Source of the DNA: Coleophoma eucalyptorum
Lineage: Eukaryota; Ascomycota; Leotiomycetes; Helotiales; Dermateaceae
Direction of reading: 5' to 3'
DNA length: 64,000 bases
NCBI GenBank assembly: GCA_026120035.1
Contig: JALRME010000037.1
Coordinates: 186,001 to 250,000 of the forward strand
Shown: positions 4,165 through 55,023 of the stretch, piece by piece
How the letters are laid out: each line of letters starts with the position of its first letter
Numbering within the stretch: position 1 is the stretch's first letter
The notes under the pieces: generated by a model
Seen by the model: only the letters and a program-made list of their open reading frames with translations
The model's database searches: none
What the model was told of the DNA's origin: nothing
Made by a program: the position numbers and the translations under genes

Positions 4165-5161
4165 TTAACAGCAAGGCTTGTCCACGTCTTCCTTTTCACT
4201 AGTCTAGAATTAGAATTCAATTTAGAATAGATTAGAAGCAGGTACAACGTACGTGTCTAGATGTGAGTACAGTGTATCTCGAGTGAAGAGAGAAAATCCT
4301 ACTAATGATCCAAAAAGGATTGCAATAATAATATAGCCTAGAAGAATTTAGCGTTTTAAAGCCTCAAATTGAAAGGATTGAATGGTTCGTATCTCACCAT
4401 TACTATACATAAATAACAACATAATACAATAACTAACACCGAATTGTACTGTATGAATAACCCCTCTTAAGAATTGCTCCACTGCTATAGCAATCTTCCT
4501 GTCCCTCGTCATCGCATTCGAAGCAGTTGCACCGCCACCATTTAGGAGCTTCTCTTCCGTCTCCTCGGGTATTTCATACTTCCCCTCTTGCAGAAATTCA
4601 TTCCTAGCCCGAAGATATCTGTCAAAACTGCGTTGAGCTCTTCGAATGAATTCCAGTGAGATAACAAGGAGGAAGGATGCGAGACAAGTAAGGAAAAACG
4701 TAAATGAGGATCGTATATGGACATTGGACGACAGAAAGCACGCATCTATGGTGCTCCAATTTAAAAGCATCTACTCAAGTTAGTCTCAAAGTGTGCCATA
4801 TATAATGCTGACTGCATGTGGATCTTTCATTGGATGCTAAGCCAAGATATCACCTCCCTCTCATTCGATTTTGGCAGTAGCACTACATCGAGTGGGATCG
4901 TCTCAAGGACCCCGTATCCCCATAGACAAAAAATATGAAAAAAAGGGAAAGTCAATATTCAGACAGATAACTCAAAATTCTGTCGTATAAACGATTTAAA
5001 TTGGAAATTCTCACAGAAAGTTTGCAGCCGCTACTGCCTCCCATGGACATCGACATTGCATTCGTAGAATCTTTTGCTGCTTCGTTGGTAGCCGATGCAA
5101 CCATGCTTATGCTTGTTGATGATGCGAGAGCACTGGTAAACGTATTCATATCCATCTCCAT
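4165..5161 (-). CDS. High-affinity copper transporter, Ctr family
   Basis: Trimeric Cu(I) importer of the plasma or vacuolar membrane. I assemble four exons, 5161-5015, 4770-4398, 4337-4253 and 4198-4165 (introns 244, 60 and 54 nt), giving 212 aa. The N-terminus is Met-rich (MEMDMN..., MSMSMGG), as expected for copper capture. The core CKLSMLLNWSTIDACF matches the Ctr entry to TM1. TM2 carries the selectivity motif MLLFM (MxxxM) and TM3 the packing motif GSLVG (GxxxG). The tail ends DKPCC, a terminal di-Cys typical for handing Cu(I) to chaperones. All frames close, so the model is well supported. The first ATG (5161) is preferred; MDMN two codons later is possible. The metalloreductase at 115-2250 would supply the Cu(I) it needs. 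Confidence 0.93.
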
Positions 5162-6533: not shown

Positions 6534-8356
6534 TTATAACTTGCTAATATTTGATTTTGTTCCTATGTTTTCCCAGTCCACCCCTTGAGCCCTGATACGG
6601 AAATGCTTCAGACCATACTGAGATTCCGAGCCTTCAGCCATCATGCTGTCAAATGCACTCCTGATAACTTTATATTGTTCCACACCACCAGCATCTGTCC
6701 ATGAAGCTCTAACTAGCCCCTTACATAAAGCCGATGCTTGGGGTGCTGCAGAACGCAGTTCATCGAGTATTTCATCCTCAGCAGCCTGTAAAGCGCCATC
6801 CGTAGCACCATCAATGACTTTGTACACAGCCTGTAACTTCAACAGTTCTGATGGAGTCACGTCTCTGGCTGTCAACATTGCAGATCGCGCCAAGGTCAAA
6901 CCCCATTCTCGAATGATGTACTTTGATATGACCGCCGGACAAAGACCGAGTTTGACCTCACTAAGCTTGAAGATTGCAGTTGAGCTGATGATTCTCAAAT
7001 CACAGACAAAGGCAAGACCAACTCCTCCACCAAAGCAGGGCCCATTGACAACAGCAATGGTGGTCTTAGGACATCGGTCGATGGCTTCAAACAAACCATG
7101 TAAGAGCTCAAACTGTTCATCCGCTTCAAAAGTGGTTTTGAGATCCATTCCTGAGCAGAAGTATTTACCCTCGGAGCTTAGAAGTATTCGAAAGATATCT
7201 TTATCTCTGGCATATTTAGTAAACACAGTAGTAAGCCCTACAATCATTGCTTTTGTCAAGGCGTTGCCGTTCTTGCCGCGTGTGAGGTAGACTTTTAGAC
7301 TTGCTCCACTACGCTGTACGCTAAATTCCTTTGTTGACTCAACGATTGTCCATTTTCGTTTACAAGTAGTCTTTACGAGGCGCCGAGGGATTGGATCAGA
7401 TGCGAGTGGTGTGCGTGCAGCCAAAGCAACTCCAACACGACTACTATTTGGCTGCTGTAATTGATCCGATATCCAAGCTCCGACTGCGACGACTTTTTCA
7501 AGATCAACTCCTGTCGATACCCCCATTCCCTGCATGGTGTAGACTAAATCCTCGGTCGACAGGTTTCCTTTTGCACCTTTCGCAAAGGGGCATCCCCCTA
7601 GTCCAGCGACGCTACTGTCAAATGTTCTAATCCCCATATCGTAGCTTTTTACAACGTTGGCAATTGCTTGTCCATACGTATCGTGGAAATGGCCAGCTAG
7701 TCGGTCTTTTGGAATGAATTTGAATAGTTCATTGAGCAGCCTCTCCACATCGGCAGGGGTACCAACTCCGAGCGTATCTCCTAAGCTGACCTCATAACAA
7801 CCAGCATCCAACAAATATTTGGTGACTTTAAGTACCTGATGTGGTTTCGTAGGCCCGTCATATGGGTCAGAAAATATGCATGAGACATATCTAAAGAATT
7901 CAGTATTGTGAGTAGTATGTTTCAATATTTCAGATGAACTTACCCTCTTACTTTTATACCTAGAGGTTTTGCTGCTTCCAAAACCTCCTTGACGCGCGTC
8001 AAGGACTCGTCAACCGAACAGTTGATGTTTTTCTTGCTAAAGCCTTCAGTCGCTGACACAAAAACAGCTATTTCCTTGACGTTGCTTTGGATTGCTGATC
8101 TTAATCCTTGCATGTTAGGGACAAGCACCGGGAGATGAATACTGGATCGAATCTGTGGCCGAATGCGTCCCATAACTTGGGCGGCGTCGGCTAACTGAGG
8201 AACCCATCGCGGCGAGACGAAGGAGGTTGCTTCAATGGTAGTTAGGCCTGCAGCAGCAAGCTTTTCAATCAGTTCAAGCTTCGTATCTGTTGGAACAACC
8301 TGAGAAATGTTTTGCAGGCCGTCCCGAGGGCCTACTTCTACAATCTTGACAGACAT
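6534..8356 (-). CDS. Fused HMG-CoA lyase / methylglutaconyl-CoA-type hydratase, PTS1 (SKL)
   Basis: A bifunctional enzyme for the last two steps of a leucine-type pathway. Exons are 8356-7944 and 7890-6534 (53-nt intron); 589 aa. Residues 1 to about 300 are an HMG-CoA lyase: VEVGPRDGLQN with its catalytic Arg/Asp, metal ligands in HFHDTYG, and the signature SSVAGLGGCPF with the active-site Cys. A linker of about 45 residues leads to a crotonase domain with oxyanion motifs FCSGMDL and CFGGGVGLAFVCD. Its SEVKLGLCPAVIS resembles the bacterial LiuC/AtuE hydratase type, whose reactant is the lyase precursor. There is no mitochondrial presequence, and the last residues are NISKL, a canonical peroxisomal PTS1. 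The ATG at 8356 is used because the frame upstream starts only at TTG. Divergent from the carboxylase alpha gene. Normally these are two separate mitochondrial proteins. Confidence 0.93.
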
Positions 8357-8780
8357 ATCCAAAGTTGTTTAACTGGCAGTTTTTCTGTTTGCAATGACGA
8401 CGAAATGTTGGATTTATTCTATTATTTTCTTAACGAGATGACCAACCCAGGATAATTATTGACACCATACTACACTTTCAAGAATGAACACTGTGTCCGT
8501 ACCATCTATTTGCTCTGCTCGGCCACGCTATACGACCGTGCTGCATGCAGCCTCGGATAGTATCACGGTCCGCCACGGTCCGCCTAGAAATGAAGCGACA
8601 CACATTATCTCAAAGCGCATATGCGAGGTTATAGAGGCTGGCAGATCTGTGTACCCCACAATACGGGCCAAGGGATCTTGCCATGTTACAAAATTTTAGA
8701 TTGCCGTCGCTCCCGTCCTATTTTAGAGAACCAAAGAGCGAGCTTGCATCTAGGAAGAAAAGAATTTGTATTAGGTCACG
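8357..8780. promoter_or_regulatory. Divergent promoter with tandem CACGGTCCGC repeats
   Basis: A 424-nt shared promoter between the lyase-hydratase (-) and the carboxylase alpha subunit (+). At 8564-8583 the 10-mer CACGGTCCGC occurs twice in perfect tandem, and ACGACCGTG lies at 8532-8540. The core CGGTCCG also occurs in the other two divergent promoters of the cluster. CGG/CCG triplets are typical Zn2Cys6 targets, so this is a candidate operator for the in-cluster regulator; that assignment is inference. Confidence 0.7.
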
Positions 8781-11275
8781 ATGTCTTCTAAATCCTCTGC
8801 AGCAGCGAATGGTGCGACGAACCAAATACCATCGCAATTCGCGGGACGAAGCGCTCGAAAACTGCCCGAAAAGTTGTTTAATCAACTAAACGATTCTAAT
8901 GGACAACCTATGATTAAGAGGGTGCTGATTGCCAATCGTGGGGAAATAGCATGCAGAGTCATTGCGACATGCCGGAAACTCAATATTACTTCTATTGCTA
9001 TTTACACTGAACCGTGAGCACAACAGCCATCCAGGTGCCCTTTATCTTCCCCTAGTAACCATGCTAATTTATTTGAAGAGATGCACTGTCACGGCATGTA
9101 AAGGAAGCAGACCACGCTGTTTCGATCGGCCCAATTGAGGGTCCAGATGGAAATCCACACCAAAACATTGAACTGATAATCCAGGTAGCGATTCAGTACA
9201 AGGCTGATGCCATTCATCCCGGATATGGATATTTGAGTGAAAATCCCAGGTTTTCCAGCAGCGTCAAAGAGGCAGGATTGTTGTTTCTTGGCCCATCGGC
9301 AAACAGCATGGCAGTTCTGGGAGATAAACGGTTGGCAAAAGAGTACCTCGCGAAGCACGCACCACAAGTACCATTAATTCCAGGATATAATGGCTCTGAT
9401 CAAAGCATTAAACGATTGCTGATAGAATCGGATCGCATTAAGTTTCCCATACTCATCAAAGCATCAGCAGGCGGGGGTGGAAAGGGGATGAGAATCGTCC
9501 GGCATAGACACGAGCTCGAAGCTGAGTTGAGGAGAGCTCAATCGGAAGCCCAAAGATCATTTGGGTCGTCTGACTGTATCTTGGAACGCTACATTGAAAG
9601 AAGTAAGCATATTGAGATGCAGATTTTTGGCGATCAACACGGCGTTATAGTATCCTTGTTAGACCGGGAATGTTCCATTCAACGAAGGCACCAAAAGGTC
9701 ATTGAAGAGGCTCCATCCTCGTGGCTATCCGCGGATCTTCGTCGCAAAATCAGCTCAGCTGCCATCTCAATTGGAGAGCTTCTGGGTTACGAAAGTGCGG
9801 GGACAGTTGAATTTATCATCGATGTAGAGACTGCAGACTTCTTTTTCCTCGAAGTCAATACGCGCATCCAAGTTGAGCACCCCATCACTGAGGAGACAAC
9901 GGGTCTGGATGTTGTGGCGTTGCAAATTTATGTGGCTGGAGGTGGTAAACTTGATGATCTAGACTACTTCAAGGAGGGCGGCGCTCCTCAAGTTGGGTAT
10001 GCCATTGAATGCCGATTATGTGCTGAGGATCCTTCACGAGATTTCTTACCCGATCTGGGCATCATTCGACGCTGGACCCCAGCAACGGCGATTCTGCATC
10101 CTTCGCAGACACAATATGTCAGATTCGAGACAGGTATAGAAACTGGATCTGAGGTTTCGATCTACTTTGATTCTTTGATTGCCAAGATTGTAGTTTGGGC
10201 ACCAACAAGAGCGCAGGCGATAGCGAAGATGGTCCTGATGGTCGCCAACACGGTATGCATTGGTATAAGAACCAACCAGGCTTTCCTACAGTCATGTTTG
10301 ATGCATCCTGCCTTCCATGATCCTGCGTACTCCACTAGCTTTATACCAGAGTTGCTACCTACTCTACTCCAGAACCCGCACGTTGCCGACGTGCCGGCCT
10401 TCTTACGTCAACTTGCTTTTGCGCCTTCACTACTTCGGCAACAGGCAATCCAATCTCAACAGAGGCTGAGTGGAAAGCGACTACCGTTCTCATCCATCAA
10501 GCCCAGCTATCGGAACCAAAAAGCAGACGCTGCGAATGCCGTTGCAGACATCGTGCAAATTCAAGGCCAGGATGTTCAAAGCTTCATTGTGGAATGGCCA
10601 TCCATGGAGCTTGATCTCAAGGCCACTCAGGACGTCAACATTGTTCCTTTGGCCGTAAGAAAATATGAAACAACTACAAGCCATTCAGCCAAAAAGAGCA
10701 TGCCGCCTGGTGTCCAGCTAGCTCGAGACTACAATGCCATCAGTGCTCAGATTCGTAGCCTGAGGTCTTCGCCCAGCAGTAGCACCTTATCAGGTAGAGT
10801 ATCTCTGCAGATTCTGAAGCAAAATTCTTTCTCCACAACTGACCACGTGCAATGGAACCTCAGTGATCTCACGTTAGCTATGGGCCTGGAGCGACAGACA
10901 ATCTACACAGTTGCTTCAAGCTCTATGGGTGGCAACGATGCCGGAGTCCATCAGAAAGTCTATGCGCACATTGCTGCGCTGGGAACTTATGTTGAATTCC
11001 GACTTTTCTCGCTGCTAACGTATGGCGAGAGCTTGCGTGTCAGCGACGCAGTGCAAGTCGCAAGTGACAGGCACGCGAATGCGCCAATGCCTTGTAGGGT
11101 ATTGGATGTGATCAAAAAGGATGGAGAGCGTATTGAGGTTGGTGAGACGGGGATGATTGTCGAAAGTATGAAGATGGAGATGAAGGTGTCAGCAACGGTG
11201 GCGGGGATATTCAAGGGACGTTTCACTAAAGGGGATGCAGTTAAGGAAGGAGCAGTTTTGTTCAGCGTAACATAA
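8781..11275 (+). CDS. Biotin-dependent acyl-CoA carboxylase alpha subunit (methylcrotonyl-/geranyl-CoA carboxylase type)
   Basis: Carries biotin carboxylase and the biotin carrier, and works with the beta subunit at 16665-18754. Exons are 8781-9013 and 9079-11275 (65-nt intron); 809 aa. Residues from about 45 begin the biotin carboxylase fold ([17 protein letters not shown]). The ATP-grasp glycine loop [11 protein letters not shown] is near 206 and [15 protein letters not shown] follows. The C-terminal biotinyl motif is [10 protein letters not shown], with the modified Lys near 777. The protein is about 80-100 residues longer than usual MCC alpha subunits, the excess lying in the linker before the biotin domain. 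I see no clear mitochondrial presequence and no C-terminal PTS1 (ends LFSVT); [10 protein letters not shown] near residue 28 only loosely resembles PTS2. It could be imported together with the beta subunit. Confidence 0.93.
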
Positions 11276-11413
11276 TCAGTGAGCAATAATGTACATGTAG
11301 ATCCATATAAACATGCTATCTTCTAGCTGGTCTCAGTTATTGACTGTGACCGACTCCAGTATTTATACTGGAGCACCTCTCTCTTTGTTTCCAGCTATTG
11401 AAGGAATTCACAC

Positions 11414-13853
11414 TCAAGCTCCAAAGTTCATGTACGGATCATGGAAGAAGCCAGAGAACGGTGATGTTCCAGGTGGTGGTGAGTCATTATAAGCGGCATC
11501 TTCACCAGGAACCTGAGCGACCAATCCTTGTCTCTGGCTATTGGGGGAAACAAAAGCTGCCAAAGGGTTCATATTCATATTCATGTTGAACACTGTATCG
11601 TAACTGGGTGATATGCCCCGATCTACTTTTGCTGCTACAGCCGGCTGTGACATAGTTGTATAATCTACTGCGGCCCAAAGATCGACCAATTCGTTTGAGT
11701 CAAGTAGCTCAAACTTAGGTGCAGCTGTGAGAGCCGTCAGAATCGGAGATGGATTCGAAACAAGCTTGTCAAGTATTGCTAGCTACTACCATCAACACAA
11801 GGTTACATGCTCTGGGGAGTAATTATGCATACCATATGTTTCCCATTTTTCCATACGAGAGCGTATTGCTCCAGGAAATCTCTGCCGGTGTTCAGACATT
11901 GTTTTGCCTGCTGGCGACGCTCAATATTCTGGTCGTTTAGGTACATAGTGTGTATGCTGGCACAAACCGTCGTACAGTACCCGAAGTATGAATAAAATAC
12001 CGGGCAGCCGAGAGATTCCGTATCCGTAAGAAGCTTGGTCATCAAACAAGCATTTTCTCTACTGCTCTCTAGGGCTCGGCTGAAAAAGCTGGCGGGGGGC
12101 TTCATACCCATCGATTTACACTTCTGATAGAGTAAGAATGGATGATGAATAAGACATTGTGAAGTGTAGAACAAAACGTAAGAGAAAATGATTGGCCCTG
12201 CAATCTGCATATCATAACCAGACCCCTTTGAGCACTTCGCAGCCGAAAGGGCGTCTTCGATACTGCTACCAATTTCAAATTGGGTTTCAACCTGTAGAAG
12301 TGTCGAATAGATCTTGGCAAAATCAGATTTAGAGTCCCATGGTGGGAGACCATCTTCCTCCTGGCCCTGATCATGGATCATATATTGAGCGCACCTTCCG
12401 ATTATGGAAGCAGCAAGAATGACCAAGGAAAAATAATTTCGACGTTTGTCGTGGCTGTCAACTGAAGAGAAGGCCTGCTTTAGTGTTTGCACCTTTTGGC
12501 AATCACTATCTTGCGAATCCACCTCATAACCTGGCAGCTGGACGTGACATTGTCCGTCAGGAATTGCAGCGGGTCGTGCTTTTCCACAAGAGCAGAGCTT
12601 GTCCAGAATATAGATAGACCAGAAAACACTGCGCCGCTCCTCCTGGTCAGTAAGACTAAGGCTGGCATCGGGTTCCAGCATGAGCCCAAGGTCCTGAGCC
12701 ATTCTGATTGCCAGGCCAATCTTCATCCAGCCTGGGTGTCTTCTTCCACCTAGATTTAGAACTCCATGAGCCTGTATACTTGGTAAATTGCTTCTAAAGA
12801 TTTGTGCTGGATTATAACGCACCTGTAAAGTCGATGATAGAGAGGAGCGTGACAGCCTGACAGATCTGAAGATTGGGATCCGTTTCAGGAGCAAACCACA
12901 CATTTACTATATGATTCCATGAGCTGCTTGCATAAGCCATGGTTGTTTCCTGCTTCTTATTTTGAAAGTGAGGATCTGTCGAAAAGCGTAATGAAGATGC
13001 TAATATAGCCAAGGTCAGGTAATTGGGTATTGAGCCATCTGAATATCTCTGTCGAAAAGTCTTCTCGTGGAAGAAAGTGTATGGTTGGTTGTGAACACGG
13101 GAGAAGTATACATCTATTAGACTGGAAGTTATGTCTGCTGGCGGTAGCTCATCAAGGGATCTATTTATGTGAACTTTCTGTGGTGCAGTAAGGCGGTCTA
13201 TACATACGTTTTTCGCATCTGTGCCGCTTGATCCTGATCATCGTGGCCGATGTCTTGAGCAGAATGATTTATTGAAGGAATTTCATACGAGATTGGAGCG
13301 GGAAGGATCGTCGGCCATCTGGTTTGATTCTGCAGCAAAGGAAGAAAGCTACAAGTGCCATCAGCGGGCATTACTCTTGGACATGCCCTGCATAAAGTGG
13401 ACAGGGCTATCACGTACCTCTGTATGGTGTTTACGAGTTGGTCTACCTTACCCTCGAGGGCTTGGATCCTTTGGGTCAATAGATTCTAGTATTTGAGTTT
13501 GAGTAAAATTAATCAACGCAGATGGCACTTCCATAGAGTCCAGGGGCTTACATCGTTCATTCCGCTTTGCTCGTGGGGGTCTGAAGCGCTGTCTTCCTCT
13601 CTTTCCTGGTTGTCTTTGGGCTGCAAAACATTTCCATCAAAATACTTACAAACCTGCGATAAACGCCGGCAAATCTTGCAAATTGGTCGCTCGCCAGAGC
13701 ATTTCGCTTTTTTTCGCCTATCGACGATGTGAGTATGTATCTCAGTGTGTGAGGATATAGCGAAAGCTGTGGGCGTTCTAACCTGCAGTTCTGGCAAGCC
13801 TGGGCTATGCGCCGGATGGGACGGTATTCATTGAGAGGGGATTGCACCGACAT
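11414..13853 (-). CDS. Zn(II)2Cys6 transcription factor, cluster regulator candidate
   Basis: Seven exons assemble to 689 aa: 13853-13783, 13717-13552, 13495-region exon starting at 13485 and ending 13418, 13348-13208, 13160-12823, 12749-11833 and 11782-11414. The zinc cluster spans the first intron: CQNCRRKKAKC then SGERPICKIC and a sixth Cys six residues later, which is C-x2-C-x6-C-x6-C-x2-C-x6-C. A short coiled stretch (LTQRIQALEGKVDQLVNTI) follows as a dimerisation helix. The middle is the fungal-specific TF domain, with PGWMKIGLAIRMAQDLGL as its hallmark. It sits between the two carboxylase/dehydrogenase gene pairs and is divergent from the dehydrogenase, so control of this cluster is the likely role. 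The exact splice at 13417-13349 is less certain than the others. Confidence 0.9.
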
Positions 13854-14758
13854 GATATGTGGTGATCGTCAAGCAGGATTGGGTAGGCATAGACCATAGG
13901 AAGGTAGCGCCGAAAGGAGGGTGATGGCAAAGTAGAGGCTACGGCACCATCTGACTCTACTGCAATTCGGGAGACTCAAGTAGCTCAGATTGTGCCTGAA
14001 TCCTACCGTGCGTGACTATTAGAGAATTCGAGGACTCCAAGTTACTTCCAGAGGTTGCAAAAGCCTCCGTGCAAGTTACAGCTTGTAAGGGCCATTTGAT
14101 GCGGGGAATCGCGACTAACTCGCAGTTTAGCTCCGGTTAAACACGTGATCTTTACGACAGTACTAATTGTAACCCTTCCTAAAGGTGTAATTGCGATCAC
14201 AGAACATATTTCAGCTGTTATAGATATTTGAGACTATATTATCGGGGAAGTGGAAGATGCTGTGTTCATTCATGATGCTGTTTTGCATCCCCAGGCGGCA
14301 CGGAAAGGACCTTGCCCAACCTATATTCACGTGGGTACTTACATCTGGGGCCAGCCACTGCTGTCTGCTGGTGCGAAGTACAAAGAAGGCGATGACACAG
14401 GCATGTAGTTGTTCTTCGCTGCCCATGTTTCCTGGACATGGTGCAATTCTGATTTGGGGATCCATCACTTCATCGGCTATTCCATGCTTTGCCAAGGGAG
14501 GCGGTCCGGTTGTAGCTCGTACGGACCGTGTCTCTCTGATTGGACCATTTGCATCGATGTTAGCGATGGCTGATCCGGTATTCCCTTCCCCAGATCTTGC
14601 TTGACCGAGGCGAGATGGTGGGTTTTGTCCTGGTCGGCAAGCAAAACGGCCAGCCCATGATATTTTAAACGCGTGGATTGCTACGCTTCAGCACTTTCTT
14701 TTCCTATCATATATTCGATCTGAGCATTGGACTGTGAATATACGAAGTATTGCCCACC
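13854..14758. promoter_or_regulatory. Divergent promoter with inverted CGGTCCG / CGGACCGTG pair
   Basis: A 905-nt region between the regulator (-) and the acyl-CoA dehydrogenase (+). GCGGTCCG at 14501-14508 faces CGGACCGTG at 14522-14530, the reverse complement of CACGGTCCG. An everted or inverted CGG pair is the classic geometry of a Zn2Cys6 dimer site. Because the regulator's own promoter carries it, autoregulation is possible. The rest shows no other feature; overlapping open frames here look like chance. Confidence 0.65.
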
Positions 14759-16312
14759 ATGTCAAACATGCACCTTGGCGAATTGGTTCCATTTGGAGAG
14801 CCGACTTGGTATTCACGAAGATCTTCGCCTTACTATAATGCGTCGCATGAAAGACTCCGAGTGGCGGTTCGGTCTTACATTGAAGAAAAGATCATTCCAC
14901 ACTGTGCTGAATGGGAGGCAGTAGGGTGTGTACCGAAGGAGGTTTGACTCCACCAGCCGATTACTCTACTTAGAAGAAACAGGACACTGAATTTAATGGG
15001 TGTCTAGGTCATTCAAGAATATTCTGCACGAGGATACACCGCAGTTACATTAAATCCAGCCGCGATCGCCAATTACCTTGATAAGGTCGAATTGCCTGGT
15101 GGTATCCGACCCCAGGAATGGGATGGTTTCCATGACTTGATTTGTATCGACGAAATCGCACGTTGTGGCTACCTGGGAGTAATCTGGGCCCTTGGTTGTG
15201 GGGACTCGATTGGATGTCCACCGGTCGTCAACTTTGGATCTGATGCACAAAAGCAACGATTCCTGCCCTCTGTCATTCGTGGACAGAGTCGTTTCTGCCT
15301 GGGAGTCACCGAGCCCGATGGTATGCTAGCATCCTAACTTATTGCGAAGCCTATCTAATATTTGCAGCTGGTTCGGATGTTGCAGGGATCTGCACTACTG
15401 CCAAGCGGAGGGGAGATGTGTATGTTGTCAACGGAGCGAAGAAATGGATCACTAATGGCATGTGGGCAACTCATTGCACAGCAGCTGTGCGGACTGGCGG
15501 TCCAGGAAAAGGTGGAGTCTCTGCCCTCGTTATACCTCTCAATCTGAAAGGCATAACTCGCAGGAAAATCTTGAATTCGGGGGTCTCCGCTAGTGGTAAA
15601 GCTCTCGGCTGAGGAGGGCTGCAGGCGTTACTGATTAATGTTCAACAGGATCGACATATCTAGAATTTGACGACGTCGAAGTGCCAGTGTCTAACCTTCT
15701 TGGTAGAGAAAACGAAGGTTTCAAAATCATCATGTCAAGTATGTCTCATTCTCTGCCGAATACCACACTGCCAAAAATAATGCATACTGACCATATTCAG
15801 ACTTCAATCATGAGCGCTTATGGCTCGCATGCACAAGTTTGAGAATGGCTCGTGAATGTATGAAAGACGCATATAGCCATGCCCTCACCCGGAAGACCTT
15901 CGGTAAGAACCTTATTGATCATCAAGCAATACGTACAAAGTTCTCCGCTATTGGCCTGAAGATAACGCCTACATATGCATTCATGGAATCACTTGTGGCA
16001 ATGGCAGATGATATTACGACGAAGAAGAATAATTGTTCTGGAGAGAGAACAGAAGAGTTGCGTTATGGAGGTCTCATCGCATTGCTGAAGATCTCTGCTG
16101 GCCGAGCCTTAGAGGAGACAGTCAGGGAAACTCAGCAGATAATGGGTGGGTTGGGTTACTCACGTACAGGGAAAGGAGCTCGAATTGAGCAGATCAGTCG
16201 TGATGTCCGGGTAATGGTAGTTGGTGGGGGGAGTGAGGAGATCCTCAGTGACTTGGCATTCAATCAAGAAAGTAGAGATCTAAAGGCAATCGTCCGTGAA
16301 AGTAAATTGTAA
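14759..16312 (+). CDS. Acyl-CoA dehydrogenase (isovaleryl-/citronellyl-CoA type), PTS1 (SKL)
   Basis: Flavoenzyme for alpha,beta-dehydrogenation of the branched acyl-CoA before carboxylation. Exons are 14759-14941, 15008-15320, 15368-15595, 15649-15738 and 15801-16312; 441 aa. The start ATG has a CCACC leader. Family landmarks are FCLGVTEPDAGSD (FAD/substrate region), KKWITNG, and the C-terminal helix region QQIMGGLGYSRTGKGARIEQ followed by RDVRVMVVGGGSEEI. It has no mitochondrial presequence and ends VRESKL, a perfect PTS1. That is unusual, because isovaleryl-CoA dehydrogenase is mitochondrial and hands electrons to ETF. A peroxisomal form would need another electron acceptor, for example oxygen. 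Substrate specificity cannot be told from the sequence by eye. Confidence 0.92.
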
Positions 16313-16664
16313 ATTCAAATAGAAAGGAGGAAGCCAAATCGTACACATTATCTAAGCCTTATCTACACCTGCTGATACGCATCTATGAGGCAAAAGGCTC
16401 CATTTAGATTACGTACTAACTGCTCACATCGATTGGGAAAGATTAATTGAAGGGCCAATTGGTGAAAATAGACACAAAGAAGCTTACGGGCAAGAGTAAA
16501 GAGGGAGAGGGGGAGAGCACCGTCTGTCCCACAATATTTCTGATTCTCTCATCCATTAGAATCATACTATCTGAATTAAGAGTTGTATCGACAAATTTTA
16601 GAAAGTATAGACTGAGCCAGCATGGAAGCGATGGAAGTAGATGGTCCAAAGTAGACTATTTACA
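16313..16664. other. Convergent intergenic region
   Basis: A 352-nt spacer between the 3' ends of the acyl-CoA dehydrogenase (+) and the carboxylase beta gene (-). It is AT-rich, presumably holding both polyadenylation regions. I see nothing else in it. Confidence 0.6.
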
Positions 16665-18754
16665 TCATATTCTAGCAAGGCCTCTGAAACCCAAATTCCC
16701 CTCAATTGGACTAATACTTACAACCTCTAAACACATTCCCAGTACGTCCCTTGTGTCCCTCGGATCAATCACTCCGTCATCTATCAAATGGGCCGAAGTA
16801 CTATAGCTCTCTGAATCTTTGCGAACCGACGCACTAAAACTATCTATTCGCTCTCTCAATTTGTCCTCTTCGACTTCTTTCCCAGCGCGTGCGGCCGAAT
16901 CGCGAGCAATTGTCTCCATCACCCCTCCAAGCTGCTCAGGGCCCATAACAGAGCAACGGCTCGTTGGCCAGGCGAAAATAAATCGCGGTGCATATGCTCT
17001 TCCGCACATGGCGTAGTTACCTGCACCGTACGAGGCGCCACACAGAATACTGATATGTGGTACAGTGCTAGTGCTAACGGCACTTACCAGCTGGGCTCCT
17101 TTCTTAATGAGCCCTGCTCGCTCGGACTTGACACCAACCATGAAGCCAGTAACATTATGCATGAAAACAATTGGATTACGCCTTGATAATTAGAATATTT
17201 AGTTCATCTCTACTTATTGACTTGAGGTACAGAGTGACATACCCTTGATTGCAAAGTTTGATAAAGTTGGTGGCTTTGTCGGACTCATTCGGAAGTATGA
17301 CCGGGTTTTGATTCGCAATAATCCCAGTCAATCGACCTGTACAAATTTTAGTATGGAATGGAATGGTTTAGATTTGTATAACTTTACCATGGATATGTGC
17401 CCAAGCCGTGATTATTCCAGGCCCAAACTGGGGTTTAAATTGTTCGATCCTAGAATCGTCCACAATCCTCAACAGGACCTCTTTCATATCCAGTGGCATC
17501 CGAATGTCTGGGTTAATGATGCCAAGTAAATCTTGCACGTCATACCTAGGCTCGAAGACATCTCTCACATTATTTATCGTCGCTGAATTCTGAGAAGTAG
17601 CAGTTGTAGTCAAAATCCATTCCCTTGCCTTTCTTATTGCGTCGAGTCTATTTAAAATCAGCCCTTCCAAGTCATCCAGTTATTATTAATAGTAACATAC
17701 TCATCTGTTGCTAGTTGGTCAGATAGGCCAGTCACTGTGGAATGCATATCTGCACCTCCGAGGTCTTCCGCTTCGGTGATTTCACCTGTGGCCATTTTCA
17801 CCAGCGGAGGTCCGCCCAAGAATACTTGGGCTTGATCTTTTACAAAGATCGTGTAGTCGGACAAAGCAGGGTGATAAGCTCCTCCTGCAGTCGAGGATCC
17901 GAAAACAATTGCACAACTAGGCATTCCATTTTTAGATCTCAGTGCCAGATCACGAAAGATCTGGCCTCCTTTGTGGAAAACACGGAACTGTTGAGGAAGG
18001 AAGACACCAGCCTAGTCAGACCGTCAAGTCAGCTCACTTTTGCATTTTGATCCACAAGGCAGGATATCCGAACCGACTGAACCAAAGCTATCAAGGGGAG
18101 ATTGTTCTCAGATGCTATCGCGGTTATCCGATTCTGCTTCAGAACTGTACCAATGGTTAGAGGGTTTTGAATAAGTAGATAGCAATGGACTTACCGGTGA
18201 ACTCGTTCCAAGCACCACCTTGTAAAGAAGGAATATGCGCAAGAATCATACAAATTATACCGCTGAGGTACTTCAGAGTCAGTCCCATAATGCGCCATAC
18301 GCCATCTGTGCGACAGAAAGTAAAGGAGGGTGAGGACAACCCCCACATACCTAACAACTCCAATACCAGCAACCAAGGACGCTGACGGGGAGGATTCGGC
18401 AAGCTGATATCCTGAAAACGAGCACAATTCTAAGAAGGGAGTTCCGTTATCTCTCAAAAGTGCCACCCTATCGCGCGCTTTCACAAATTAATATAATGCT
18501 TGATTCTGATGTTGGGGTCAGAACCTACCTAGTAGTTGTCGTGCGGTATGTTTCTCCAGCGCGCCAGGCGATATACTTTCTGAGCATACTACCTGCGATG
18601 CAGAAGCATATTCGGACAATATTTTCTTCCATTTCAGACTGTTTTCTTGAAAATCCGAACTTTTCGTGTTCAGGCTACTTGGTAATGTCGGGAAGGAGGA
18701 TGGAATTACTTCCCGCGACAGACGGGGCGTCTCTGTAAAACCGCTCGACATCAT
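16665..18754 (-). CDS. Acyl-CoA carboxylase beta subunit (carboxyltransferase; methylcrotonyl-/geranyl-CoA type)
   Basis: Carboxyltransferase partner of the alpha subunit at 8781. Eight exons close to 561 aa: 18754-18529, 18477-18351, 18262-18195, 18144-18038, 17987-17701, 17647-17388, 17336-17243 and 17181-16665. The N-half has [34 protein letters not shown] and [17 protein letters not shown], then [20 protein letters not shown]. The C-half has [23 protein letters not shown] and [16 protein letters not shown]. The length matches MCC beta subunits. Where the family usually reads VQSAG, this model reads VQSVR and continues SCLVDQNAK before FRVFHKGG; see findings. The C-terminus GFRGLARI could act as a weak PTS1 (ARI). 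No mitochondrial presequence is evident. Divergent from the acyl-CoA synthetase. Confidence 0.9.
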
Positions 18755-19170
18755 GCTACCAACCTAGAGATTTGGATGGGGATTGGCCTGCAGAAAGAGA
18801 AAGTCCTTAAGACTGATAAATGGCAGTGACTATCATACTTGGCCCATCAACATGAAATTTCCTCATTCCCGATCGTCTCGGCTGTGGTTTGCTTTACCGT
18901 GGCATATGTTTTACTAGGAATCCCGAGCCGCTTCACGGTCCGTCCGTAACGGCAACGCTGCGGATCGGCCGTACGCATTCAATCCCAGGGTTGCTTGCCG
19001 CAAGTTTTCCACAGCTTGTATGTCCTACCAGTTAATATGAATTCGACGATGCTTCTCTTGTTGCTCACAATGTCGCATCGTCCCTCAACATTTGTACTGG
19101 TTCATTCTTTAAAGGGCAGCAGTCTAAGAGGCAATAGCTTAATCGGCTGGTAACTCAGTAGGGCACAGTC
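18755..19170. promoter_or_regulatory. Divergent promoter with CACGGTCCG motif
   Basis: A 416-nt promoter between carboxylase beta (-) and acyl-CoA synthetase (+). CACGGTCCG occurs at 18934-18942, followed at once by TCCGTAACGG and, at 18961, CGGATCGGCCG. This is the third promoter of the cluster with the same nonamer. Confidence 0.65.
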
Positions 19171-21111
19171 ATGCCACCTCCCCTCACCAAAGTGTCATAT
19201 CTACAAGGGCCAACAGAAGAACCCTTATGGAATATAACGCTCAGTCAGCTCCTTCAACAACAAGCAAATAATACCCCGTCCAGACAATGTCTCGTGTTTT
19301 CCGAAGCCAACTGCCATGTCAATTATAGAGATCTTTACCTTCGCACCTTAAGGATTGCGAAGGCACTTATCGCGGCAAAAATTGGTCATGGAGATCATAT
19401 TGGAATCATGGCTGGAAATTGTCTCCCTTATGTGGAACTGCTGTTTGCTGCCGCACATGTTGGTGCGGTCTTCGTCGTTTTGAACAACACCTACACAGCA
19501 ACCGAGCTCAAGTCTGCATTGAAGCATTCTGGTATGAATCATTTCTCTGTCAAAACTCCAACTAACACATTGTCTTAGAGTGCAGGATCATTTTTACTGT
19601 ACCATCCATCGGGAAGTCTCCAAACTCGGCAATTCTGGATTCGCTCTATACAGAACTTCACAGCACAAATTTATCTAAGCTTGAAAGCGCCATTATGCTT
19701 AAACCTGAATCTTCGCAACGGTTTATGGCATATGACACTTTTAACAACTTGGGTAGACACATTACTGACGATCAATTGTATGCAAGGATGAGAAATGTCC
19801 AGACTACTGATGTCTGCAATCTTCAATTCACCAGTGGCACAACTGGGAGCCCTAAGGCTGCTATGCTGACGCATAAGTATTTATTATCCTATATGTATCT
19901 CTTAGGGTATCACTGAATGCAAGACAGGAGTATTATCAACAATGGACGGTTCATCGGTGATCGAATGCGCCTGAGCCCGGACGATATAATCTGCTGTCCT
20001 CCGCCGTTATTTCACTGCTTTGGTCTTGTCCTTGGCTTATTAGCAGTGTTCACGCATGGAGCTAGTATTGTGTTTCCAAGTGAAACTTTCAATCCTGCAG
20101 CAGTACTACAAGCCGTCTCAATGGAACGTTGCACAGGATTACACGGCGTTCCGGCAATGTTCTCCGCAGAGTTGGAGTGCTTGAAAGAGAATCTAGACTT
20201 TTCACACCTCAGAACTGGGATAGCAGCCGGAGCACCAGTACCAAGGAAGCTAATGGAAGACCTTCGCAACATTTTACATCTGAATGAGATAACAAATACC
20301 TACGGTGAGAAGTCCGACGCTGCATGCTCCCTTAGTGATGAACTCATATGAAACAGGAATGACTGAAACCTCGCCTGCAACCTTTATGACTTCCACCGAT
20401 GACCCAATAGAGATGCGGCTTACTACTGTAGGACGCATACTACCCCATACAAAGGCCAAGATTATCGACAAAAATGGCGATATAGTACCAATTGGATCAA
20501 GGGGCGAACTCTGTGTCGCTGGATTTGCCCTTCAAAAAGGCTATTGGAAGAACCCGGTCAAGACAGCAGAAGTTATGAGAACTGATCAAGAAGGTGTTCT
20601 GTGGATGCATACTGGCGATGAAGCAATCTTCGATATGCGAGGATACTGTAGCATCACTGGTCGCATCAAAGACGTCATCATTAGAGGTAATGTCTCGCTT
20701 TCTTCCAGTTCCCTCCTGCCTTCTCAGAAAGGAGCATTCCCTAATACTGAGGCTTTGACTACAGGTGGTGAGAACATATATCCTCTCGAGATTGAGGAGC
20801 GCCTTTTTCAGCATCCAGCAATCATGCAAGTGAGTGTATTTGGTATTTCGTCTCCAAAATACGGTGAAGTTGTAGCTGCAGTCTTGAAACATCGACCTGG
20901 ATACGAAAAGCCAACAATGGAGTCCCTACGGTCTTTCGTGTGGAAAACTCTGGGGAGGCATAAAGCACCCGTGCATATATGGTGGCTAAAGGAGGGAGAA
21001 GACTTTCCGAAGACAGGGAGTGGAAAGATTATGAAACATGTGTTACGTGAAAGAGGTGAGAGAATGCGGAAAATTGAGGAACGCGGAATACCGATGATTT
21101 CAAGGCTATAA
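19171..21111 (+). CDS. Acyl-CoA synthetase (AMP-binding), PTS1 (SRL)
   Basis: Activates a carboxylic acid to its CoA thioester with ATP, the entry step of the cluster. Exons are 19171-19531, 19579-19876, 19928-20304, 20357-20686 and 20765-21111; 570 aa. The AMP-binding P-loop is LQFTSGTTGSPKAAMLTH. The adenylation motif runs TNTYGMTETSP across the third intron. The hinge is MHTGDEAIFDMRGYCSITGR, and the C-terminal catalytic Lys is in PKTGSGKIMKH. The C-terminus is PMISRL, a standard PTS1 variant. It belongs to the medium/short-chain acyl-CoA synthetase group rather than to long-chain FadD types. Isovalerate, or a geranate/citronellate-like acid, would suit the neighbouring enzymes. Confidence 0.93.
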
Positions 21112-21247: not shown

Positions 21248-23413
<2,166 letters not shown>

Positions 23414-25514
23414 ATGTCTGAAATTGCAATGGCCGATATTTGCAATTACGATGACAGCGGACCTCACATGAAGAGAAAGCTCAGCAAGTTCAATATGATT
23501 GCTATGACATTTGCGATCTTGAAGTAAGATGCACTCTCGTATGTCTTTTACTTTGAGACCTTCATACTGAAAATCGCCTAGTACTTGGATAGCACTTGCA
23601 GGAATCCTAGGAATTGTACTCCCATCTGGAGGACCGGCGGCATTAGTCTACGGCTTTATTTTCTGTGTCCTGTGCAACCTGTGTCTCACAGCAAGCCTTG
23701 GCGAGCTTGCCTCTATTTGGCCAACTGCGGGTGGTCAATACCACTTCTCTTATATGTTAGCGACGGAAAGATATAAAAATATTTCATCTTTCATTGTGGG
23801 TTGGATGAGTATTGCTGGCTGGCTTACTTTGGTTACAACTGCTGGATACTTTAGCGGTCAGTCAAACTCCAGTCCTTGCTTAAACTGACTACTAATTTAC
23901 TACCTCATAGCATTTTTCATTAACGCAGCTATTATCATAGCAACTGGTGCATCATATAAAGCCGAAACCTGGACGACATACCTCATATTTGTGGCGGTTA
24001 TAGTGTTTGTCACCCTCGCCAACCTATACGGAAGCAGGATCCTCGACCAATGGAACAACTATGCTCGTATGATATAATATCTCCATAACCAGAGAACCAC
24101 TGAATGCTGACTGGGCCACAGTCATATGGTCATTACTTGGATTTATTGTTCTCAGCATAGTCCTACTAGCAACGTCGAAAAAGAACAGCGCTCAGTATGT
24201 CTTTACTGACTTCAGCAATACAACTGGATGGAATAATGGCGTTGCTTGGATAATGGGAATGCTGCAATCTGCTCTCTCATTGATAGGCTCCGATGCCGCT
24301 ACACATATGAGTGAAGAGATGCCGAATCCAGCTAAGGATACTCCACGGGCCATGGTATACTCCATCATTGTTGGTGGCGTTACGTACGTTCATATTTACG
24401 CTATCACGAGGTCAAGCTGTCATGGAAACTAACATTCAGAATAGAGGTTTTGCATTCATTCTAATTATGCTGTTTTGCTTGCAAGATATGGACGAGATAC
24501 TTGCTACCGCGACAGGAATGCCCATTACCGAATTGATATATAGATCTACCGGCAGTCATGCTGCAGCAACTATTATTACAGCAATGCTTGCCATATGTTT
24601 CATCAACGGAACAAACGGCGCTGTAACAACCACAAGCCGACTCATTTACGCAATGGCTCGAGATGATGGAACCCCATTCTCGAATTAGTAAGCCTACGTC
24701 TTGAATATTTAAACAACTGTTAACATAGACATAGTTTCTCCAAATTGAATGCAAATAGCATCCCAGCCCGAACCGTTTTGGTCTGCTGTGTGTTCAACCT
24801 CTGCTTCGGACTTATCTATCTTGGTTTGTTATGACACGAAATGAAATCTGAAGGGGCTTTCGCTAATATACTGGCTGCAGGACCGTCGATAGCCTTTAAT
24901 GCTTTTATCGCGAGCACAACAATCTTTTTGAATATCTCATATGCCATACCTATACTTATACTCTTAGTAAGAGGTCGGAAGATCTTGAGCTCCCAAACAG
25001 TTCACTATAGTTTAGGTCATATGGGTGTCGTCTGGAACTCAATTGCCGTAATTTTCGTTGGTTTCACATCGATTGTAAGCAAAAAGGTCCAAGAGAATAC
25101 TTTGTTATATTCCACTAATAAATATATAGTTTTTCTGTTTTCCGGCATCACCTATTGTGACGAGTTCCGACATGAGTAAGTCTCATTCAGAATTTTGGAG
25201 AGATTGGTCATCTAATATACCGTGTCAGATTATGTCACAGCTGTCATAGGGATTTTCTTAGTTCTCATGGCTTTTACCTGGGTACTTCAAAGACATCAAT
25301 ATCATGGACCGGTACCTTCACTTACTTTTGCAGCTATGAACATTCTAGAAAGCTGACGATTTGATAACAGGATATCTCAATGCTCTTGGGGGTTTCAATC
25401 GAGAGCTCGGGTTCGCATGTGCTTGAAGTGCCAGTCACAACCAATAACGAGAAGAAGTGCAGTATAGTAGGAAGTGTTTCAAAGCCAGGGGTCGCATTAA
25501 GAACATTCTTTTAA
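23414..25514 (+). CDS. APC-superfamily amino-acid/amine permease (GABA-permease-like)
   Basis: Twelve-TM plasma-membrane importer. Ten exons assemble to 533 aa: 23414-23523, 23582-23856, 23911-24066, 24122-24383, 24445-24687, 24735-24823, 24881-25074, 25130-25175, 25229-25311 and 25371-25514. Landmarks are KLSKFNMIAMTFAIL at the start, the TM1-2 stretch LPSGGPAALVYGFI, LGELASIWPTAGGQYHF, the conserved SDAATHMSEEMPNPAKDTP and RLIYAMARDDGTPFS. These are typical of fungal choline/GABA/amine permeases. Divergent placement next to an amine oxidase suggests it imports that enzyme's amine. The last exon is the least certain part of the model. Confidence 0.88.
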
Positions 25515-36849: not shown

Positions 36850-37864
36850 GAAGGACCCAAGCGCCTCTACTAGGCAGCTGAGCGGAACGAATACAAACAA
36901 CACTAGGAGTAGTTGTTGATAGATCTGGCCTACTATAAACTGCGCTCCCTTTTTTAGACTTTTGGAGATAATAGATTGTTTAGATCGTCTATTCAAGATG
37001 AATTCTTTGATTTAATTGCCTTTTGTTGAAGCTTTGTATATAAAAGAGTTTTCAACGCTAGTAAAAGTAGTAAATTATATATAGAAAGAAAGAGATTCGA
37101 GTAGGTCAAATCCTAAAGGTTAGATTCTGACGTTCTCTAAAGACTAGCGTGCTTCTTTCATTGCAAATAACCCCTTGGAGCTGTGAACAACGGCAATTAG
37201 TATGTAGACATAAAAACAAAGTAGCAGTAAGGTAAACAAGGCATACCTAGATTAGAAGACTATCGTGGTAGGAGTTATAAGGACAACTTAGTAAAGTACT
37301 AGAGTGATCTTGTCTTATAAACTTGTTGCATTAATCTTTGTACTTCTTCCCTCTACTTAAATAGTGTTATGACGTAGTTATAAGCGAATAGTAAACACAA
37401 ATGAGTAAGATACTTGAAAAGACACCAAAAATTGGGAATTTTATATCTTTCCATTTCCTTAAATAGCAGACTATATCTTCTAAAACTTGGTGTCTTTTCA
37501 AGTGTCAGACTCACTTGCATGTCAAACTCGCTTAAAACGTATGTTATGTCGATCAAGGCAAATTCGGAGTGGGCGAGCTTACATACCCCGCACAAAGACG
37601 GGTTGGGAATACGAATACATTGTTATTGGCCGTTGATCTATTTCCTCGCCCACGCTAAAACAGTTTGAGAATACGAACATGTTATTATTGGGCGTTGATT
37701 GACTTATTCGCCAGCTGAGAACCTTCAGAGACTAGTAACATACCACCACCCAGCATCATATTTCTTTATAAAAGGTTATTTCTTCAGCCGGCAACGACAT
37801 GTCATTGCACACACTAAAAAACCTTCCTAGATAGTCTCATCTCTCCATTGTTCATATTCTGGCC
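36850..37864. repeat. AT-rich intergenic region with 17-bp inverted repeat and 31-bp direct repeat
   Basis: 1 kb upstream of a flavin monooxygenase. A perfect 17-bp inverted repeat (ACTTGAAAAGACACCAA at 37412-37428; its complement at 37487-37503, 58-nt loop) could be a hairpin or a small foldback element. Closer to the gene, 37607-37637 and 37669-37699 are imperfect direct repeats starting GAATACGAA and ending GCGTTGAT or CCGTTGAT, spaced 62 bp. The 36900-37350 part is AT-rich with no readable gene. Confidence 0.6.
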
Positions 37865-39505
37865 ATGGGTGATAAAGTGGCAGTCATAGGAGCTGGAGCG
37901 CTAGGTCTTTCGGCGACCAAAACATTCATTGAAGATGGATTTACTGTTACTACCTACGAGTCCCGCGATTATATAGGCGGCTTATGGAAAGACTCTGACG
38001 ACTCATCTATTTCCGTCGATGCTACGACAATCTTCAACACCAGCAAGTTTCGTGCGGCCCTATCAGACTTCCCTTTTGCCGATACGGATGACAATTACCC
38101 TACAGCCGCGCAGCTACATGCTTGGCTGCAAAGGTATGCCCATAAATTTGATTTACTGAAGAGAATCAAACTGGGTATGAAGGTTCTATCCATCAAAAGA
38201 AAGGGTGATGAATGGGAATTAGTGGTTCAGAAGCATAGTACTGGTGATATTACGGTAGAGCATTTCGACAAGGTGTGCATAGCGGCCGGTTCATTTTACA
38301 CACCCCGATGGCCAACCCTGGCAGGTCTCGATCAATTCGCTGGAAAGGTCTTGCACTCAATTGATTATCATCAATCTGAAGAGTTCGAAGATCAGAATGT
38401 TTTACTGGTCGGCATGCATGCTACGGCCCAAGATACGACACACTCTTTGAGTAAGAGCGCGAAGCATGTCTACCTTTCACATAGAGGCGGTCTTCTTATG
38501 CTACCAAGATATGGCGAGGATGGTGCCACTTTTGACACTTCGGGGTCTTTGATGGTCACTCTTTTTATGGCCTGGATGGCTGTCCACCTGCCTAGAGTCT
38601 TGTACTGGATGATGGATATGGCTCTGCAAAAAATATCTGCAAAAGCATTTCCAGGCATTCCTAATGAGTGGAGACTAAGTCCACCGCCACCTCTAGCCAC
38701 CTCAACTCCTCTGATGGCCGACACCCTCTGGCCACATCTCCAATCCAAGTTTGCAGAGCCGGTTCCGCCTATTCGTCGCATCTTAGGGCCCCATTCAATC
38801 GAATTAGACGACGGCCGCATCTTGGAAGACGTCGACTCCATCATCTATTGCACTGGTTACGATTTCAATCTACCTGATGGCCTAATCCCGAAGGCATCTC
38901 CCACTGAAGATTTCCATCCTTACCCAGATGGCTCTTTGGGACAGCCTCCTAATCTGTATCGGAATACATTCCCTCTGCATCGGGACCGATCTATTTGCAA
39001 CTCCCTCGCGTTTCTGGGCCAGGCTAGTATTATCTTCCCTGGCTTCGTCCAGTGGGAATTGTGTGCCATGGCGATTAGCCAGACCTGGAAGGGCACATCT
39101 TCATTACCATCATATGATGCCATGCTCAAATGGCGAGAGTGCCATCTTGCAGAACGACGCGCCGCTATTGCGAGATATAAGCCACGCGAAAACTCCACGT
39201 TTTACCCTACGTTGTTAAACATGGGAGATCATTTGCGGTGGGTAGATGAGACCGCTGGCGCCGGGATTTACCAGAATTTGAGTATGGCTTGGTTGAATTG
39301 GCGCGCTTGGAAACTGTGGTGGCAGGACAAAGAGCTTTATTACTTATGCACGAGAGGGCTATTTAGTCCTGCCATATGGCGACTTTTTGAAACTGGCAAG
39401 AGAAAGGCGATGCCAAGAGAGGAGTGTCGCGCGATGATTGTGAAGCAGAGCATGATGGCTGAACAGCTCAAGAACAAGGGAATAGGATCTAAAAAGATAC
39501 TGTAG
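37865..39505 (+). CDS. Flavin-containing monooxygenase (FMO-like)
   Basis: Single-exon 546-aa flavoprotein that would use NADPH and O2. The FAD motif VAVIGAGALGLS is at residues 5-16, followed by ESRDYIGGLW. The FMO-identifying element FAGKVLHSIDYH (FxGxxxHxxxY) is near 160. The usual NADPH motif GxGxSG is replaced by LLVGMHATAQD, so cofactor binding may differ. CTGYDF near 336 matches the family's ATG/CTGY motif. A hydrophobic stretch (SLMVTLFMAWMAVHLPRVLY) in the middle may attach to membrane. The start ATG has a good context (GGCCATGGG). No neighbour obviously shares its pathway. Confidence 0.9.
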   Translation: MGDKVAVIGAGALGLSATKTFIEDGFTVTTYESRDYIGGLWKDSDDSSISVDATTIFNTSKFRAALSDFPFADTDDNYPTAAQLHAWLQRYAHKFDLLKRIKLGMKVLSIKRKGDEWELVVQKHSTGDITVEHFDKVCIAAGSFYTPRWPTLAGLDQFAGKVLHSIDYHQSEEFEDQNVLLVGMHATAQDTTHSLSKSAKHVYLSHRGGLLMLPRYGEDGATFDTSGSLMVTLFMAWMAVHLPRVLYWMMDMALQKISAKAFPGIPNEWRLSPPPPLATSTPLMADTLWPHLQSKFAEPVPPIRRILGPHSIELDDGRILEDVDSIIYCTGYDFNLPDGLIPKASPTEDFHPYPDGSLGQPPNLYRNTFPLHRDRSICNSLAFLGQASIIFPGFVQWELCAMAISQTWKGTSSLPSYDAMLKWRECHLAERRAAIARYKPRENSTFYPTLLNMGDHLRWVDETAGAGIYQNLSMAWLNWRAWKLWWQDKELYYLCTRGLFSPAIWRLFETGKRKAMPREECRAMIVKQSMMAEQLKNKGIGSKKIL

Positions 39506-54232: not shown

Positions 54233-55023
54233 GATAGAAAATGTGAGAATGCTATTTCTTTCGTTTTTGTCCTGTCAAGATATGGAAATCCTTCCCTCTT
54301 ATCAAACTGAAATGTATTCAATTATTTCTACCTGAAAAACCATCATCTTGTAGGGAAATTAAGAGCTTCGCCATGGAGGGCTAGAGGGCAACGGCGTTGT
54401 TCGGCATCGAATATGCACCCCGCGTATGCACCGTCGGGCAGGGAGTATAATTCTACGGCGAAATTCCTTTGAAGGATATGAGATCGGGTTCCACTCCTTA
54501 AGAGGAGCCTACATAAGTTGGTAACAGTAGTAAAGACGGAGAAGACACTGATGCAAGCTCAGACGACGAGAGCTTGCCCGGATCTTAAGCGAGCGGGCAA
54601 GACATCTTTGAAGAGCGAAGAACTGTAGACTATCAGCCCTATTTCCAGTGAGAAGGGAAATTGATATTCCCGGTACCAAACTGGGTCTTTCACATTTACA
54701 GTGTGTGTATCAATCAGCCCTATCTCAAAACGAATCTTGTCCGAATGTCCAGAGCCATGAAGGGAAGAGTGGGTCTCATTCAATCGCCCGAGACTAATGC
54801 CTGGGTATATCCGCCCCGCCAGCAAATTCGGCCAAGTCCTATCTTCCTTCAGACGAAACACCTCCAGTGGGGATATCTTGCTCACGTGAACGCTGATTAC
54901 ACTTCACGTTCCATTGAACTGCATATGACGATAGCGATAAGGTTCAAAGGAAATTTCTCGCAAGCTGCGGAGAGATGCCGCACTTTGCTCGATCTTTACA
55001 CACACAATCAAAGTTCCAACAAG
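54233..55023. promoter_or_regulatory. Divergent promoter with short hairpin
   Basis: 791 nt shared by the aldolase (-) and the dihydropyrimidinase (+). CTTGCCCG at 54573-54580 and CGGGCAAG at 54594-54601 form a perfect 8-bp inverted repeat with a 13-nt spacer, a plausible dimer-binding site or hairpin. An open frame at 54661-55131 overlaps the downstream start and I regard it as chance. Confidence 0.4.

Follow-up and report, generated by a model that had tools for sequence, protein, structure and literature searches.

A fungal gene cluster for a candidate peroxisomal, Atu-like breakdown of beta-methyl-branched acids

The stretch of Coleophoma eucalyptorum DNA considered here (the window) covers positions 186001-250000 (64 kb) of contig C32, in a genome of 45.26 Mb on 101 contigs. 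As listed in Table 1, it carries at 6534-21111 six genes in three divergent pairs: a fused lyase-hydratase gene facing the alpha subunit of a biotin-dependent acyl-coenzyme A (CoA) carboxylase, a Zn2Cys6 regulator facing an acyl-CoA dehydrogenase, and the carboxylase beta subunit facing an acyl-CoA synthetase. A first-pass annotation, made from the letters alone, had proposed both this layout and the presence of the regulator inside the cluster; spliced gene models and Pfam searches upheld the two. The PF00172 match of the regulator (35.6 bits for a cut-off of 21) was obtained on a peptide joined across one intron.

Table 1. Genes, intergenic regions and motifs of the cluster (window coordinates; HMG-CoA, 3-hydroxy-3-methylglutaryl-CoA)
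Feature	Position	Strand	Details
HMG-CoA-lyase-type/enoyl-CoA-hydratase fusion	6534..8356	-	589 aa; exons 8356-7944 and 7890-6534; C-terminus SKL
Carboxylase alpha (biotin carboxylase + biotin carrier)	8781..11275	+	809 aa; exons 8781-9013 and 9079-11275
Zn2Cys6 transcription factor	11414..13853	-	PF00172, PF04082; exon structure only partly modelled
Acyl-CoA dehydrogenase	14759..16312	+	441 aa; five exons; C-terminus SKL
Carboxylase beta	16665..18754	-	557 aa; eight exons; C-terminus ARI
Acyl-CoA synthetase	19171..21111	+	570 aa; five exons; PF00501/PF13193; C-terminus SRL
Divergent promoters	8357-8780; about 13854-14758; 18755-19170		
Two tandem CACGGTCCGC motifs	8564..8583	+	fusion/alpha promoter
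CACGGTCCGT motif	14521..14530	-	regulator/dehydrogenase promoter; extra CGGTCCG core at 14502
CACGGTCCGT motif	18934..18943	+	beta/synthetase promoter

The Pfam domains identified were PF00682 and PF00378 in the fusion, PF00289, PF02786, PF02785 and PF00364 in the alpha subunit, PF01039 in the beta subunit, and PF02771 and PF00441 in the dehydrogenase, which has a helix-G-type glutamate (NHERL) and a glycine at the other base position. The GPRDG, HFHD and GGCP sequences of the lyase and the ESMKME sequence of the biotin carrier, which we take to be catalytic motifs, are intact. Among the matches listed, the closest homologues are proteins of Phialocephala subalpina (84% for beta, 82% for the dehydrogenase), and those of the carboxylase come from many filamentous ascomycetes. 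For eleven of the 13 beta homologues nearest to the window protein in the lists (P0121-P0133), the longest contig is equal in length to that given for one of the fusions or dehydrogenases listed, an indication that the genes share a contig; in Coniosporium apollinis the beta, dehydrogenase and fusion genes bear consecutive tags (W97_02363, 02364 and 02365). Two other sources were of little help. Among the NCBIfam families shown, none was above cut-off for the window carboxylase, synthetase or dehydrogenase, a null result that is uninformative because the Pseudomonas controls AtuC and AtuE likewise gave no family; the lyase part alone passed (NF004283, 404.8 bits, on homologue P0001). The match to solved chains was discarded as too general, 3r7k heading the lists for the window dehydrogenase and for AtuD alike.

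According to Jurado et al. 2015 (PMC4673880), the beta subunits of methylcrotonyl-CoA carboxylase (MCC) have Phe191, immediately preceded by an insertion of three residues, whereas those of geranyl-CoA carboxylase (GCC) have Gly162 and no insertion; the Phe blocks geranyl-CoA, swapping the residue can change the preference, and the signature is proposed there as an annotation guide. The window beta subunit, and that of a paralogous set on contig C59, have no insertion and a Gly at the position of the MCC Phe, while a third beta subunit of the genome, on contig C79, has both the insertion and the Phe (loop DKEHFG). The best 120 beta homologues listed have at this position Gly (108), Ala (9) or Thr (3) and never Phe, so that the MCC combination is absent from the window protein and from all 120. 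The first-pass annotation had cast a leucine intermediate as the substrate; by the published rule (PMC4673880) the window beta subunit lacks the MCC signature and carries the GCC residue. Several of the listed homologues are named 'methylcrotonoyl-CoA carboxylase', some of them 'mitochondrial', and the evidence assembled here suggests that these labels are mis-annotations.

A separate leucine-type set is present elsewhere in the genome. On contig C79, genes for a carboxylase beta, a carboxylase alpha and an isovaleryl-CoA-dehydrogenase-type enzyme are adjacent, and the beta and dehydrogenase proteins are each about 60% identical to the Pseudomonas leucine enzymes LiuB and LiuA, respectively. 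Contig C22 has a stand-alone lyase, and contig C36 a lyase-hydratase fusion (L004:1126-3327) without a type 1 peroxisomal targeting signal (PTS1); no more than about 15 kb from this fusion, contig C36 also has dehydrogenase exons. Presequence-like N-termini, judged by eye only, were seen in the C79, C22 and C36 proteins and in none of the window proteins. That the cluster might be a second set beside the housekeeping pathway is thus supported, the search of the whole genome having excluded that these are its only copies, and the window set is therefore additional. Its dehydrogenase and carboxylase are not the nearest relatives that the bacterial leucine enzymes have in this genome: it is the C79 genes that are closest to them, and the housekeeping role, for which the window genes were ruled out, fits those on C79, C22 and C36. 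Nor is the fusion a distinctive trait, as had been thought. PF00682 and PF00378 occur together in all of the best 120 (of 6940) fusion matches listed, and the genome has two further fusions, the one on C36 and another on C59. The latter belongs to the paralogous set mentioned above (about 57-70 kb; L018:1030-8376 and L019:529-4873), which comprises an AtuA gene (PF07287, 489 bits), alpha, beta (ending in ARL), fusion (ending in AKL) and dehydrogenase genes. The model of its dehydrogenase has three in-frame stops, a sign that the set may be decaying. PF07287 genes are found at about nine sites of the genome, one of them, on contig C14, near a dehydrogenase match. A further carboxylase-like pair lies on contig C13 at about 1574-1579 kb (L023); its alpha-like frame ends in AKL, possibly a peroxisomal biotin enzyme.

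To place these proteins, trees were built with bacterial loci. The beta tree (52 rows) held 27 of 80 bacterial loci, in which no stops were found, three plasmid loci (records H1, H2 and H11 of 748 with a match), two Pseudomonas proteins, three PDB chains, 14 of the 120 fungal homologues and three genes of the present genome. The fungal proteins formed a clade of 16 rows (support 100/100), itself part of a third clade of 26 rows (100/99) with sequences from Bacteroidota, Myxococcota and Actinomycetota; MCC and GCC formed separate clades (both 100/100), and the window beta subunit therefore stands outside the clade to which the solved GCC from Pseudomonas belongs. From the alpha, dehydrogenase and hydratase trees, bacterial fragments with internal stops were left out (4/27, 1/24 and 1/23, respectively). 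In the alpha tree (26 rows), the window and C59 proteins grouped with the Bacteroidota loci L110 and L111 (96/90), within the third branch (93/88). In the dehydrogenase tree, the C79 protein joined four LiuA proteins (100/100) and the window protein was placed elsewhere (neither the searches nor the trees included the C59 dehydrogenase); the fungal clade was sister to the dehydrogenases of the GCC loci L093 and L102 (99/97), a position that is partly chosen because these two were picked as best matches to the window protein. In the hydratase tree, from which the fusion proteins P0017, P0110, P0115 and P0062 were left out and in which the C59 fusion is an open frame, the 20 fungal fusions fell on the AtuE side (89/88).

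In a comparison with one Pseudomonas genome, the Atu counterpart outscored the Liu one for the hydratase domain (AtuE, 108 bits, versus LiuC, 84), for alpha (AtuF, 390, versus LiuD, 363) and for the dehydrogenase (AtuD, 173, versus LiuA, 148), the top score of the last being that of a Nocardia protein (191). For the C59 fusion, the model aligned here contained a short spurious intron. The highest beta scores were those of three actinobacterial proteins (452-485 bits).

A feature absent from the first-pass annotation concerns the C-termini. Four of the five enzymes (all save alpha) end in a peroxisome-type tripeptide. Tails were counted in the best 120 listed homologues each of beta, dehydrogenase and fusion, using a wide rule ([AS][RK][LIMF]) and a strict one ([SAC][RKH][LM]). 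The wide rule fitted 117, 91 and 70 of them, respectively, for a background among internal tripeptides of 0.37%, 0.56% and 0.31%; the strict rule fitted 53, 83 and 68. In the fusion family, some proteins have an N-terminal extension and others do not. In the window fusion the lyase domain begins at the very N-terminus, and 13 of the 15 fusion homologues closest to it, among those listed, end in SKL or AKL. Many fusion homologues (P0016-P0049) have an N-terminal extension and end in AKL as well, and may thus be dually targeted. The enzymes may also be cytosolic or mitochondrial and have PTS1-like ends for another reason, a reading under which the pathway could still be Atu-like and which is compatible with an alpha subunit devoid of signal, with the ARI end of beta and with the N-terminal extensions of many fusion homologues. 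We consider it improbable in view of the strict signals (SKL, SKL, SRL) on three window enzymes, of a tail conservation strongly above background and of the start of the window fusion right at the lyase domain. Import of alpha would have to occur together with that of beta, failing which alpha would act outside the peroxisome. As to precedents, some acyl-CoA dehydrogenases of Aspergillus nidulans have already been assigned to peroxisomes (PMC4117967), and that part is therefore not new; in a Histoplasma peroxisomal proteome paper, methylcrotonyl-CoA carboxylase appears as an endogenously biotinylated protein used for normalisation (PMC13343957).

The cluster also seems to have its own regulation, as the first-pass annotation had claimed, in the form of the in-cluster regulator and of a motif common to the three divergent promoters, which share the 9-mer CACGGTCCG. 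CACGGTCCGY matches four times in the 64-kb window, each time within these promoters (0.04 expected; 0 of 100 shuffles reached four). Genome-wide it is rarer than its reversed control (61 matches versus 100), and only its clustering is informative. The core, CGG-N-CCG, is a pattern for Zn2Cys6 factors; five of its seven occurrences in the window fall within the three promoters, for which a binomial value of 3e-7 was obtained post hoc. Post-hoc controls showed that a common 9-mer is by itself weak evidence, being found in 23 of 2000 shuffles and 44 of 3000 real non-overlapping segments (139 of 2000 with overlaps). With at least four copies the figures were 0 of 2000 shuffles and 2 of 3000 real segments, and with the added condition of no copy elsewhere in the window 0 of 3000 real segments. 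An attempt to define a wider regulon by motif plus half-site was uninformative (3 genome matches versus 8 for the reversed control). A flavin amine oxidase gene (21456-22759, minus strand) and an amino-acid-permease-like open reading frame (ORF) (23571-23888, plus strand) adjoin the synthetase gene; neither has CACGGTCCGY beside it, and the oxidase was on this ground ruled out as a regulon member. The regulator would act through the CACGGTCCGY sites, which we infer to be its operators.

Plain beta-oxidation cannot degrade beta-methyl-branched isoprenoids. The explanation that we favour, with moderate confidence and from sequence evidence, is a co-regulated peroxisomal route of Atu type that would act on acids of isoprenoid type, larger than isovalerate, and rid them of their beta-methyl branch. 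In its favour are the peroxisome-type tails, the GCC-type Gly without insertion, the third carboxylase lineage with atuA in the flanks of part of its loci, the higher Atu scores of hydratase, alpha and dehydrogenase, the AtuA gene of the C59 set, the existence of a separate leucine-type set and the confinement of the motif, within the window, to the three promoters. The synthetase would activate the acid and the dehydrogenase form the 3-methyl-2-enoyl-CoA; the biotin carboxylase would then carboxylate the methyl (gamma) carbon, the hydratase domain add water, and the lyase domain split off an acetate unit, so that the remaining 3-oxoacyl-CoA could enter ordinary beta-oxidation. Geranyl/citronellyl-, farnesyl-, phytenyl- or labdane-type acids are the probable substrate class.

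Several observations weigh against this proposal. The Gly rule was derived from Pseudomonas enzymes and its use on a third lineage is an extension. The wide tail rule was picked after the beta tails had been seen, the strict one passes less than half of the beta homologues, the ARI of the window protein is an end that we take to be a weak PTS1, and alpha has no PTS1 and no match to a type 2 signal (PTS2) in its first 60 residues. The beta subunit scores higher with LiuB (407 bits) than with AtuC (382), and the link of the fungal fusions to AtuE itself is not fixed in the hydratase tree. The lyase domain resembles LiuE (52% identity), which serves both the Atu and Liu routes; for this reason, and because the C36 paralogue may serve leucine, the fused enzyme does not tell the substrate. 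The profile search of the contigs gave no PF07287 (AtuA) match on C32. Finally, about half of the third-lineage bacterial loci (see below) have atuA, in operons without a known substrate.

Some of these points, namely the LiuE-like lyase and the proximity of beta to LiuB, would suit a second leucine-type pathway located in peroxisomes, in which isovalerate, coming for example from isoamylamine by way of the amine oxidase, would yield acetyl-CoA and acetoacetate by identical reaction chemistry; the oxidase and permease-like ORF next to the synthetase gene go the same way. We nevertheless regard such a pathway as unlikely, given the missing Phe and insertion in the window beta subunit and its 120 listed homologues, the distance of the dehydrogenase from isovaleryl-CoA dehydrogenase in the trees, the leucine-type set present elsewhere and the lack of the promoter motif at the oxidase gene.

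Among the known systems closest to the proposed Atu-like route is the Pseudomonas Atu pathway (atuABCDEFGH plus liuE), where the sequence from activation to cleavage has been described for citronellyl/geranyl-CoA (PMC4097962). The reaction order would be the same, and both have a CoA ligase, a dehydrogenase, a hydratase, a LiuE-type lyase and a two-subunit carboxylase with Gly and no insertion. The window set differs in being fungal and peroxisome-signalled, in its fused lyase and hydratase and in a carboxylase of another lineage; neither AtuA nor a dehydrogenase of AtuB/AtuG type was found within 6534-21111. It looks like Atu/Liu chemistry in an apparently new compartment. The mitochondrial leucine cluster of A. 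nidulans, the ivdA-mccB-mccA trio (PMC4117967), resembles both C79 and the window in that dehydrogenase and both carboxylase subunits are adjacent; C79 differs from the window by its presequence-like N-termini, its MCC insertion and Phe and its identity to LiuB and LiuA.

Bacterial operons of the third lineage are a further term of comparison. The flanks of 84 loci were searched and 32 loci listed, their grouping being based on the tree; with the reservation that flanks were not uniform and that several contigs were short, atuA was found in 5 of 10 third-lineage, 8 of 11 GCC and 0 of 9 MCC loci, and a lyase in 0 of 10, 0 of 11 and 2 of 9, respectively. Plasmids pDND3A of Rhodococcus gordoniae and pDK58 of Dietzia each bring together genes annotated as AtuA-family, carboxylase, dehydrogenase, hydratase and AMP-binding. 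In these two and in the Bacteroidota locus L110, both carboxylase subunits are of the sister lineage of the fungal ones, and hydratase, dehydrogenase and atuA are nearby; unlike in the window, the enzymes are not fused and no lyase was found in the flanks.

Other genes of the window are a ferric reductase (115-1704, minus) and a Ctr copper transporter (4348-4770, minus) upstream of the cluster, two frames resembling flavin-containing monooxygenases (37835-39505 and 51295-52266, both plus) and, at 53294-57679, dihydrodipicolinate synthase-like, amidohydrolase and short-chain dehydrogenase genes, which with the monooxygenase-like frames perhaps make up another catabolic group. Pfam searches of 24 ORFs of the window that lie outside the cluster, a set that covers part of the exons, detected no ketosynthase or condensation domain. 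This, together with the fact that carboxylase and lyase perform breakdown chemistry, makes it very improbable that the cluster is a biosynthetic one in which a secondary metabolite would receive its branched acyl precursor, an idea for which the in-cluster Zn2Cys6 regulator and a few fungal homologues named for biosynthetic dehydrogenases (apdG, AFT10-1; names only) could be invoked.

In the open-access full-text literature, over the part of the result lists that was surveyed, no description of such a fungal pathway was found. A 2014 review sets out the Atu/Liu route of Pseudomonas strains in full and states that for a long time no fungi were known to grow on monoterpenes as their only source of carbon, Grosmannia clavigera being a recent exception (PMC4097962). 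Two AtuA-family proteins of Phacidium infestans were given a suggested role in uptake, transport or detoxification (PMC12148953), and in the main text of a proteome paper on labdanolic acid in Penicillium janczewskii a term search finds neither 'carboxylase' nor 'lyase' (PMC5534450).

A broader scenario is offered here as tentative: filamentous ascomycetes may have taken a gamma-carboxylating carboxylase of the third lineage from bacteria and moved it with its partners into the peroxisome, where long isoprenoid acids (phytenic, farnesoic or labdane-type resin acids) would lose their beta-methyl branches and could then be broken down to the end by the usual beta-oxidation. The direction of transfer is here an inference, because the trees were rooted at midpoints. 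To conclude, the pocket signature, the organelle signals and the candidate operator make the fungal route directly testable and, if the proposal is true, it would bring to light a biotin-dependent acyl-CoA carboxylase in peroxisomes and show that fungi have their own equivalent of the beta-decarboxymethylation of bacteria.

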